Shown here one piece after another: positions 49,941 through 51,896 of a DNA stretch of 64,000 nucleotides. The translations under genes and the position numbers were made by a program. A model generated the notes under the pieces. That model was not told the origin of the DNA. It saw only the letters and a list, made by a program, of their open reading frames with translations, and ran no database searches. The stretch is from Microbacterium yannicii (lineage in GTDB: Bacteria > Actinomycetota > Actinomycetes > Actinomycetales > Microbacteriaceae). The stretch spans positions 124,001-188,000 of the forward strand of contig NZ_JAMXMB010000040.1 in assembly GCF_024055635.1 (NCBI RefSeq), written 5' to 3'. Positions within the stretch are counted from its first letter, which is position 1. The number at the start of each line of letters is the position of its first letter.

Positions 49941-51896
49941 ATGAAACGAAACCCCCTCCGCCGGCTGCTCGGCGCGGGCACCGCGATGGCGCTGCTGGCC
50001 GGCGGCCTCGTGCTGTCCGCACCGGCCGCGGCCTCCGCCCAGACCGTCACCGAGGCATCCTGCTCCGGCGACTCCCTCGTCTCGAAGACCCTCGAATCCG
50101 GATCCAGCTGGCAGATGTGCTGGCGCCTCGACACGTATCGCGGTCTCGTCCTCGACAAGATCGCATATCAGCCGCGCGACGACGCGGCGCCGATCCTCGT
50201 ACTCGACTCCATCGCGCTCGCCCAGCTCAACGTGCCGTACGACACCGGCGCCACGGAGTACAACGACGTGACCACCTACCAGGTCGGCGGGCGTCGCCTG
50301 CAGGCCATCGCGGCGGTCGACTGCCCGGTCGGCGAGGTGCACAGTGCCTGGGTGGACGCGACCCGCGGTGAGATCCCGGCCGTCTGCATCGGCGAGGAGG
50401 ACTCGGGTCTCGCCTACCGCTCGAACATCACCAACGATGCGCTGTACGCCGCGCAGGGCACCGACCTCGTGCTGCACAGCGTGTCGCGCATCGGCTGGTA
50501 CGAGTATCAGACCGAGTACCGCTTCCACGACGACGGCGAGATCTCGGTGCGCCTCGGCGCGACCGGTGACCTGTCGCCCAACGACTACGTCGACGTCGTC
50601 AACCAGGGGTGGCCGATCGCCCCGGGTCAGGAGGACTTCGCGGTCAACCACTACCACTCGGCGTTCTGGCGCGTGGACTTCGGCCTCGACTCCGGCGCCA
50701 CCCAGCAGGTCGAGAAGTTCGCGACCACGCCGACCGGTGAGTACGGCACCACGGGCGACACCGGTCACACCGCGATCCTCGAGACGCAGCTCACGCAGGT
50801 CACGAACGAGACCAAGACCATGGGCTCGAACCGCGAGGCGTACCGGGTCGTGAACCCCGAGAGCATCAACGCCGACGGGCACGCCCGCTCGTACGAGATC
50901 ACCGTGCCCCGCGACCAGGCGTACAACCTCAACCCCGAGACGGACTACGACATCGCGTTCACGTCGGCCAAGTCGGACGAGATCCACGCCAGCCACAACC
51001 TCATCCCGTCGAAGGCGGGGCAGATGGTCAGCGACTACATCGCCGACGGTGAGGCGCTCGTAGACCCGGTGGCATGGGTGAACGTGGGCTTCCACCACAT
51101 CAACCGCGACGAGGACCAGAGCCCGATGCCGATCCACTGGCAGGGCTTCACCCTCTATCCGCGTGATTTCGCGGCGCAGAACCCGAACATCCCCGAGGGC
51201 CGCAAGTGGGTCAACGGCGACATGCGCGGGGTGCCGAACCCGAACATCACGCCGACGCCCACCGCGTCGCCGACGCCCACGCCGACGACGGAGCCCACGA
51301 CGGAGCCCACGCCGACGCCCACCGAATCCGGCAACGGGAACGGCAACGGGAACGGCAACGGCAACGGCAATGGGAACGGCAACGGGAACGGCAACGGCAA
51401 CGGCAATGGGAACGGCAACGGCAACGGCAACGGCAACGGCAACGGCAACGGGGGCTCCACGGCGCCCGCGGCCGCACCTGTGACGTTCGGCAGCGCCGAG
51501 GTCGCCCCCGGCGCCGCACAGACGGCGACGGCCAGCGGCTTCACCCCCGGTGAGACCGTGAGCGCCGTGCTGCACTCCGACCCCGTCGACGTCGGCACGT
51601 TCGTGGCGGACAGCGAGGGCGTCGTGACGGCCCAGTTCGTCGTCCCGTCGGGTACCCCTGCCGGCGAGCACACCCTGGTGCTGACCGGGCAGACCTCGTC
51701 GGCCGTCGCGCAGGGATCGTTCACGGTGGCGTCCGCATCGCCGGCTGCCATCTTCGGCGCACTCGCCACGACCGGCACCGACGCGAACAACTGGGCGCTG
51801 TCGGGCATCCTGCTCCTGGTGGCAGGAGCCGGACTCGCGGCCACGTCGTGGCACCTGCGTCGCCAGCAGGCGCACAAGGGACAGGCCGCGGCCTGA
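49941..51896 (+). CDS. Copper-amine-oxidase-like cell-wall-anchored protein
   Basis: A 651-aa surface protein. After a signal peptide (LLGAGTAMALLAGGLVLSAPAAASA), residues about 40-430 align with the catalytic core of copper amine oxidases: Asp109 (EYNDVTTYQVGG) as catalytic base, Tyr187 (GWYEY) at the topaquinone position, His237/His239 (NHYHSAFWRVDF) and His385/386 (GFHHINRDED) as copper ligands. Spacings match those of Arthrobacter and E. coli enzymes. The Asn normally preceding the cofactor Tyr is Trp. A Pro/Thr linker, a Gly-Asn repeat, an Ig-like domain and a C-terminal LATTG (residue 608), hydrophobic span and RR tail follow: a LAxTG sortase signal. ATG 49920 is an alternative start. 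Confidence 0.82.
   Translation: MKRNPLRRLLGAGTAMALLAGGLVLSAPAAASAQTVTEASCSGDSLVSKTLESGSSWQMCWRLDTYRGLVLDKIAYQPRDDAAPILVLDSIALAQLNVPYDTGATEYNDVTTYQVGGRRLQAIAAVDCPVGEVHSAWVDATRGEIPAVCIGEEDSGLAYRSNITNDALYAAQGTDLVLHSVSRIGWYEYQTEYRFHDDGEISVRLGATGDLSPNDYVDVVNQGWPIAPGQEDFAVNHYHSAFWRVDFGLDSGATQQVEKFATTPTGEYGTTGDTGHTAILETQLTQVTNETKTMGSNREAYRVVNPESINADGHARSYEITVPRDQAYNLNPETDYDIAFTSAKSDEIHASHNLIPSKAGQMVSDYIADGEALVDPVAWVNVGFHHINRDEDQSPMPIHWQGFTLYPRDFAAQNPNIPEGRKWVNGDMRGVPNPNITPTPTASPTPTPTTEPTTEPTPTPTESGNGNGNGNGNGNGNGNGNGNGNGNGNGNGNGNGNGNGNGNGGSTAPAAAPVTFGSAEVAPGAAQTATASGFTPGETVSAVLHSDPVDVGTFVADSEGVVTAQFVVPSGTPAGEHTLVLTGQTSSAVAQGSFTVASASPAAIFGALATTGTDANNWALSGILLLVAGAGLAATSWHLRRQQAHKGQAAA
51330..51449 (+). 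repeat. Twenty 6-bp repeats encoding (Gly-Asn)20
   Basis: Twenty consecutive units of GGCAAC or variants GGGAAC and GGCAAT encode alternating Gly and Asn. The repeat joins the Pro/Thr-rich linker to the Ig-like domain of the amine-oxidase-like protein. It is a likely site of slipped-strand length variation; changes would keep the frame. Confidence 0.95.

Follow-up and report, generated by a model that had tools for sequence, protein, structure and literature searches.

A copper amine oxidase encoded by two adjacent genes in actinobacteria, with tryptophan in place of the cofactor-motif asparagine

Two adjacent genes that together encode one copper amine oxidase (CAO) were found in a 64,000-nucleotide stretch of the Microbacterium yannicii genome (contig NZ_JAMXMB010000040.1, positions 124,001 to 188,000), referred to here as the window. 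The downstream gene encodes the catalytic domain (D4). The upstream gene encodes D2 and D3 (N2/N3), the domains that come before D4 in known CAOs. Many actinobacteria carry a CAO split over two adjacent genes, and in nearly all of those compared Trp replaces the Asn that precedes the tyrosine precursor of topaquinone (TPQ), the cofactor. Homology of both halves to one CAO, near-perfect linkage of the two genes, conserved catalytic residues and a near-fixed Asn-to-Trp change were all observed. We regard the split anatomy, in which a D2-D3 gene and a D4 gene make up a single CAO, as very probable. With more reserve, we think it probable that the two polypeptides form a copper oxidase with working TPQ amine oxidase activity and with the Trp stacked on the cofactor. 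This split CAO of Actinomycetota appears, on inspection of the sequences by eye, to be exported.

The D4 gene is an open reading frame (ORF) at 49941-51896 on the forward strand, which ends in TGA and encodes 651 residues. Pfam PF01179 (Cu_amine_oxid) matched residues 56-416 (E 1.9e-39, 136.2 bits, cut-off 27), placing the protein in the CAO fold family. An AlphaFold2 model (pLDDT 86.1, pTM 0.88) aligned with the phenylethylamine oxidase of Arthrobacter globiformis (AGAO) at Z 36.6 over 360 residues, with an rmsd of 2.9. A first-pass annotation, made from the letters of the window alone, had proposed Asp109 as the catalytic residue, Tyr187 as the cofactor tyrosine and His237, His239 and His385-His386 as the copper site. 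When 53 family proteins were aligned with 10 canonical CAOs, Asp109, Tyr187, His237, His239 and His386 fell at true CAO positions. Of the two adjacent histidines, His386 is the third ligand and His385 is not in a ligand column. The spacings given by that annotation were exact: 78 residues from 109 to 187, 50 from 187 to 237 and 147 from 239 to 386. The TPQ-precursor tyrosine, the catalytic aspartate and the three histidine ligands of a CAO are thus all in place. Tyr100 is presumably the equivalent of AGAO Tyr284, which forms a hydrogen bond to TPQ O4, as judged from the alignment. The Asn before the TPQ tyrosine (T-X-X-N-Y-D/E) is absent. As the annotation had read it, Trp takes its place and the motif is W186-Y187-E188-Y189.

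The same annotation stated that the enzyme part lacks the usual N-terminal domains. This was wrong, since D2-D3 is encoded by the adjacent upstream gene, as sequence profiles, profile-profile alignment and fold comparison indicate. A CAO-free profile built from 51 upstream proteins had a canonical CAO N-terminus as its best match outside the family (E 5.6e-6), and 6 of 10 canonical CAOs had E 0.28 or better among the 44 non-training rows listed. Other ORFs, which matched the N-terminal part of the profile (one at 8e-4), were interspersed among the CAOs in that listing, and for this reason profile-profile alignment and fold comparison are the stronger evidence. In hhalign, the upstream profile aligned with 10 canonical CAO N-termini at 96.3% probability (E 1.8e-9, 176 columns), compared to 0.1% for a reversed-profile control. 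For the upstream protein, AlphaFold2 gave a model with a pLDDT of 87.7, with upstream proteins as its only input. All 43 Foldseek matches to it at E <= 0.001 were CAO chains. Residues 33-227 of this model aligned with residues 17-207 of Hansenula polymorpha amine oxidase (HPAO) at Z 10.1 over 173 residues (rmsd 3.7). An earlier iterated search with a hidden Markov model, with E down to 2e-30 against canonical CAOs, was not used; CAOs may have entered its profile.

Single models gave fainter matches. NCBIfam NF008559 (primary-amine oxidase, a curated single-chain model) matched the window D4 protein over model positions 247-629 with 104.6 bits, and its curated cut-off of 651 bits was reached by neither gene. 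In a Streptomyces pair (L053), whose upstream protein was the one tested in that comparison, the matches covered complementary parts of the model, positions 17-121 for the upstream protein (E 3.8e-4) and 236-627 for D4. Among Pfam families, AGAO-like_N2 matched the largest number of upstream members, yet only 6 of 36, with a best E of 0.0075; the window's upstream protein scored 13.5 bits against a cut-off of 27.4. The start of the upstream gene was chosen by eye from an AAGGAAT-like site in front of it and from the ORF starts of two relatives (L035 and L036), and its stop is 17 nt ahead of the D4 ATG. D2-D3 is not in the same chain as D4. No family frame held both N2/N3 and D4 matches and three distinct canonical frames did (four records, L009 being the same as L077), in a test that detects canonical N-termini weakly and family N2/N3 strongly.

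The two genes are nearly always found together. A scan of genome contigs gave 46 D4 loci, all actinobacterial, and for lineages outside Actinomycetota this single scan sets the scope of the family. The loci came from Microbacterium, Agromyces, Compostimonas, Jiangella, Phytohabitans, Plantactinospora, Actinoplanes, Actinomadura, Motilibacter, Solirubrobacter, Streptomyces, Actinacidiphila, Nonomuraea and a further Microbacteriaceae genome. A D4-profile search of 394 genomes of the class (E <= 1e-30) gave 41 D4 genes, in 40 genomes, with scores of at least 380 bits. The next match, at 134 bits, was in the range of canonical frames of single-chain size. For 40 of these 41 genes, an N2/N3 match was found 83-276 nt upstream on the same strand, the distance being taken from one profile match to the other. 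Every one of the 40 N2/N3 matches that scored over 149 bits was paired with a D4 gene. Eleven further N2/N3 matches (24-43 bits) were in longer frames, at least 645 aa in 10 of the 11, and look like canonical CAO N-termini, as checked by frame length and, for G150, also by position. Of the 53 loci in the first alignment, 50 have an N2/N3 relative ahead of D4. In the pooled set, 83 of 87 D4 genes have such a partner, which supplies the system with D2 and D3. Besides this D4 gene, the window's genome has a second one on a different contig, 42% identical to it, and no further PF01179 match at E <= 0.001. The second gene also belongs to a split pair (L068:7037-9723; G000:C20, about 64171-66134) and is accompanied by N2/N3, DUF305 and signal peptidase genes.

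Active-site residues were counted in 87 distinct D4 sequences of the family and in 20 lower-scoring rows, 19 of which were canonical CAOs and one a fragment from L051 short of the motif. Tyr187, His237, His239 and His386 were kept in all 87, so neither of the results that the first-pass annotation named as fatal to it, a Tyr187 away from the cofactor position or unconserved histidines, was seen. Asp109 and Tyr100 were each found in 86; the exception is the row from L051, which is truncated by a frame break there. Residue 186 was Trp in 84 and Asn in three, compared to Asn in 19/19 canonical CAOs. The Asn members are two from Solirubrobacter (L044 and L045) and one from Microbacterium sp. 5K110 (L060). 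L043, counted as the same as L044 in the census, also carries NYEY in the 53-protein alignment. Residue 188 was Glu in 77 and Thr in 10. In Phytohabitans suffuscus (L051:4902-6148), the D4 sequence runs across two frames, which would mean a pseudogene or a sequencing error.

To compare columns, the two L051 rows were dropped, leaving 86 family and 19 canonical rows, and conservation was defined as at least 93% in the family and at least 85% in the canonical set. Thirty-one columns were conserved in both sets. Twenty-nine of them hold the identical residue, including Y100, D109, Y187, Y189, H237, H239, H386 and M396, and two differ, Q95 (Glu in canonical CAOs) and W186 (Asn). Therefore, the motif change is the one obvious change among the shared conserved residues. 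Three canonical rows (L018, L081 and L080, one each) seem to be without Asp109, His237 or His239. These gaps were taken as alignment slips because the same genes show the Asp or the HxH in the alignment of 53 plus 10 proteins. Residues invariant in the family only include C60, H385, H399, W400 and Q401. Cys41 was present in 85/86 and Cys60 in 86/86 family rows, with no Cys at either place in the 19 canonical rows (column 41 is a gap in all of them), and the two probably form an extra disulfide. H399-W400-Q401 is found in 86/86 family rows; the canonical rows vary there. At the position of His399, Asp occurs in only 12/19 canonical rows, and the proposal that it is the canonical residue there was dropped.

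WYEY is neither a stray mutation nor a mark of gene decay. In comparisons of the window pair with five relatives, dN/dS was 0.06-0.22 for D4 and 0.10-0.35 for N2/N3. A quick maximum-likelihood tree was built from 60 family and 18 canonical D4 sequences (78 in total, 413 columns) after thinning at 93% identity. In it, the family was set apart by a branch with support 100, and a long branch leads to the canonical CAOs. The NYEY members fell in a group of 23 rows (support 96), all the rest of which have Trp. This tree provisionally favors Trp as ancestral in the family, with one return to Asn, a polarity read from a short search that included the motif columns, in which L060 has a long branch (1.19) and long branches meet near the root, as the program warned.

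These data are best explained by the following mechanism, worded here as a proposal. The D2-D3 protein would be carried out of the cell behind its N-terminal hydrophobic segment and the D4 protein would be exported as well, the window's copy being tethered to the wall by its linker and LATTG signal. Outside the membrane, the chains would assemble, probably as a dimer of D2D3/D4 pairs. According to the available part of a CAO review, all CAOs structurally characterized by that time were homodimers whose monomer has D2, D3 and D4 (PMC3382800). Copper, perhaps delivered by the DUF305/CopM-like neighbor, would be held by His237, His239 and His386, and Tyr187 would be oxidized by copper and O2 to topaquinone. 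Asp109 would act as the base, and Trp186 would stack on the quinone, taking over the role of the Asn in holding it in a productive orientation. D3 may form part of the wall of the amine channel. The same text notes that few channel positions show any conservation and counts HPAO positions 155 and 156 among these few (PMC3382800); both fall in the span aligned with the upstream protein. Therefore, the separate subunit probably forms part of the amine channel. The products at the cell surface would be aldehyde, ammonia and H2O2.

Several observations weigh against a working two-chain enzyme. According to the parts of two papers that were available, AGAO N381A forms TPQ at 1/180 and turns over (kcat) at 1/160 of wild type, with the cofactor flipped (PMC9491219), and HPAO N404A has only 5-10% TPQ (PMC3382800). 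These costly mutants are Asn-to-Ala and the natural change is Asn-to-Trp. For D2-D3, the sequence evidence from single proteins is moderate. Pfam gave no match at E <= 1 with the full-length upstream protein of the window, phmmer with this protein against PDB found no CAO, and NF008559 matched it over model positions 12-118 with E 0.23 (9.8 bits), which is not significant alone. The AlphaFold2 models are of one chain each, with the two halves modelled apart. Four of the 87 D4 proteins (G014, G038, G082 and G272), which form one clade with support 100, have no adjacent N2/N3 gene. A search of these four whole genomes gave a best N2/N3 match of E 0.0158, in a 661-aa frame, and for this reason we conclude that D4 can persist without N2/N3. 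In 25 of 53 loci, including all those of Streptomyces and Nonomuraea tested, D4 is not directly followed by a DUF305 gene, and DUF305 proteins also serve as copper-resistance proteins (PMC4335983, in the portion available).

The first-pass annotation allowed for changed chemistry, which stands as a possibility given how badly the Asn-to-Ala CAOs are impaired. The split copper protein might leave its Tyr unmodified or make a different cofactor, such as a Trp-stabilized tyrosyl radical or a product derived from Trp and Tyr, and carry out other oxidase chemistry at Cu(His)3. This we consider unlikely, although it is the strongest of the alternatives. It would account for W186 being near-fixed as one of only two positions that are conserved but different between the groups, and H385, H399, W400 and Q401, invariant only in the family, are near the third ligand in sequence. 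The Asn at this position governs both TPQ formation and orientation in known enzymes, as the available text of two reports describes (PMC9491219; PMC3382800), and the CAO review calls the residue before the TPQ tyrosine strictly conserved (PMC3382800). However, the residues needed for TPQ and amine oxidation (Y187, three His, D109 and Y100) are kept, and members with the standard NYEY nest within the family. That the Trp belongs to a new protein-derived redox center, a Trp-stacked or modified tyrosyl or quinone next to Cu(His)3, with a reaction other than ordinary primary-amine oxidation, is a doubtful proposition.

The upstream protein could also be a maturation helper, or caddie, that shares descent or fold with CAO N-terminal domains, which is compatible with any reading of D4. 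We find this improbable. A separate gene with its own hydrophobic segment would suit a helper, as would the persistence of D4 without N2/N3 in four genomes. Part of the fold is common too: 4exr matched the upstream model at Z 7.8 and YpmB/YpeB at Z 6.8-7.2, over only 63-69 residues, and the comparison tool warns that Z below 8 is common. However, both domains align in order with CAO D2-D3 over the full 173 residues, the sequence profile points to CAOs, and the order of the genes mirrors that of the fused enzyme.

Least probable is a non-catalytic surface protein derived from a CAO, used for copper binding, metal storage or adhesion. The wall-anchor signal of the window D4 protein, the copper-chaperone-like neighboring gene and the four members without N2/N3, three of which are beside a gene for a surface-type protein, are consistent with it. 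However, a binder has no evident need for Asp109 and Tyr100, which are kept in all 86 covering members, or for a D2-D3 gene paired in 83/87. The wall anchor is not general either; among the 17 loci listed, little follows D4 in the proteins from Streptomyces, Actinacidiphila, Micromonosporaceae, Actinomadura, Motilibacter and Nonomuraea. The adhesion or copper-binding relic that had been suggested for the window protein is disfavored because the active-site residues are fixed, dN/dS is well below 1 in five pairs and the anchor is not general. Chance or artefact was ruled out, since other genomes of Microbacterium carry D4 genes 91-99% identical to this one and 12 further named genera have more distant relatives, and a decayed gene was ruled out by dN/dS together with residue conservation.

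Coordinates of the features are collected in Table 1. From its N- to its C-terminus, the D4 protein consists of a signal-like segment, Cu_amine_oxid, a Pro/Thr-rich stretch, (GN)20, a small domain and LATTG. The (Gly-Asn)20 linker and the LATTG signal are present as first annotated, and derivation from a CAO with a cell-wall-type C-terminus is supported. LATTG, a hydrophobic stretch, a basic tail and a sortase in the genome (two PF04203 matches above cut-off) are the features of a LAXTG-type sortase substrate; the NCBIfam LAXTG model matched weakly (20.7 bits, below the cut-off of 65). The small domain had only sub-threshold Pfam matches (MalQ_N and MG2), and proteins of many relatives match this region.

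Table 1. Features of the split CAO pair and its downstream neighbors in the window.
Feature	Position	Strand	Basis
Upstream N2/N3 gene, ~281 aa from GTG 49078	49078..49923	+	ORF list (mechanical ORF starts 48931)
Hydrophobic N-terminal segment (signal anchor or signal peptide)	49168..49233	+	By eye
D2-D3-like region of upstream protein	49336..49920	+	AlphaFold2 model vs HPAO
C-G-V-D-R-C, probable disulfide	49810..49827	+	C191, R195 and C196 invariant in 36 aligned rows
D4 catalytic gene	49941..51896	+	651 aa; PF01179 match and AlphaFold2 model vs AGAO
Signal peptide, residues 1-33, cut between AASA and QTV	49941..50039	+	Judged by eye from sequence
Cys41 and Cys60, family-specific, probable extra disulfide	50061..50120	+	Family vs canonical columns
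Cu_amine_oxid domain, residues 56-416	50106..51188	+	PF01179, E 1.9e-39
Tyr100, presumed AGAO Tyr284 equivalent	50238..50240	+	86/87 family (other row truncated), 20/20 other rows
Asp109, catalytic base position	50265..50267	+	86/87, remaining row truncated
W186-Y187-E188-Y189, altered cofactor motif	50496..50507	+	W 84/87, N 3/87; Y187 87/87
His237 and His239, copper ligands	50649..50657	+	Each 87/87
His386, third copper ligand	51096..51098	+	87/87
M396 (canonical too) and H399-W400-Q401 (family-invariant)	51126..51146	+	Each 86/86 family rows
Pro/Thr-rich linker	51249..51329	+	Sequence
(Gly-Asn)20 linker, residues 464-503	51330..51449	+	Sequence; exactly 20 units
Small C-terminal domain, approximate bounds	51459..51737	+	By eye
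LATTG (608-612), hydrophobic stretch, basic tail	51762..51893	+	Sequence
DUF305 gene, CopM-like candidate copper chaperone	51994..52680	+	PF03713, E 1.2e-38
Type I signal peptidase gene (Peptidase_S26)	52677..53234	+	PF10502, E 2.2e-26

The DUF305 protein of the window scored 86.9 bits with NCBIfam CopM, just below the cut-off of 90. CopM of Synechocystis, a DUF305 protein that binds copper, is reported from both the periplasm and the extracellular space (PMC4335983, available part), and its relative here may feed copper to the enzyme. Of the 53 loci, 28 have a DUF305 gene immediately after D4 and 25 have a gene for type I signal peptidase a short distance downstream; close Microbacterium relatives are over-represented in these counts, and contig ends may hide some genes. 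Neither was found in the flanks of the Streptomyces, Actinacidiphila and Nonomuraea loci or of L074-L076. A second DUF305 gene is present in the window at 45911-46600, about 2.5 kb upstream of the pair, and a relative of it (61-100% identity) is similarly placed in 12 of 53 loci, all from the window's genus. In Streptomyces (L053:6185-8388), D4 is followed by genes for a SAV2148-like HEPN protein and an exonuclease-like protein; these two clusters were each found in 13 of the compared loci.

The D4 sub-clade without an N2/N3 partner was found at L074:7906-9246, L075:8083-9459, L076:7930-9294 and L135:2050-3513. Upstream of D4 in G014, G038 and G082 (L074-L076) are genes for surface-type proteins of 2442, 1908 and 547 aa by ORF length. 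Of these three, only the G082 protein was compared with NCBIfam, which names it choice-of-anchor G. As for a plasmid-borne gene, tblastn against 72,556 plasmid records returned 53 records, all below 60% identity, and this candidate was rejected. The best 20 of the 53 were 25-29% identical; given this ranking, the other 33 are unlikely to include a family member.

A large natural clade with Trp in place of Asn, and nearly all other shared conserved residues kept, lends itself directly to studying how TPQ is formed and kept in position. Due to the split between D2-D3 and D4, the role of the small domains becomes directly testable, with one subunit added or omitted. We found no description of a two-gene CAO, or of Trp in the motif, in the open-access literature, with subscription journals mostly outside its reach, and absence from print is not proven.

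Four known systems can be compared with the pair. The downstream neighbor carries the same domain as CopM and other DUF305 proteins (PMC4335983). CopM itself is described in the available text as a copper-resistance protein of Synechocystis (PMC4335983), whereas delivery to an amine oxidase is our suggestion here. Plant CuAO clade I (zeta) resembles the family as a CAO clade with an altered cofactor motif, T/S-X-X-N-Y-D being reported as missing in the portion available (PMC12058724). By that description the whole motif is lost in the plant clade, whereas here the Tyr and, in 77/87, the Glu stay. HPAO-1 shares the D2-D3 fold of the upstream protein, but it is a single chain in which Asn404 precedes the TPQ tyrosine (PMC3382800, available part). 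AGAO (NF008559/PF01179) shares the most with the system: the D4 fold, the Cu ligands, the Tyr at the TPQ position, the base Asp, the presumed Tyr284 equivalent, the Cys pair C128/C149 and the order of D2-D3 before D4. It differs in that the window system has D2-D3 on a separate polypeptide, Trp for Asn381, and a D4 with a signal peptide and two extra Cys, at 21-23% identity in structural alignments.

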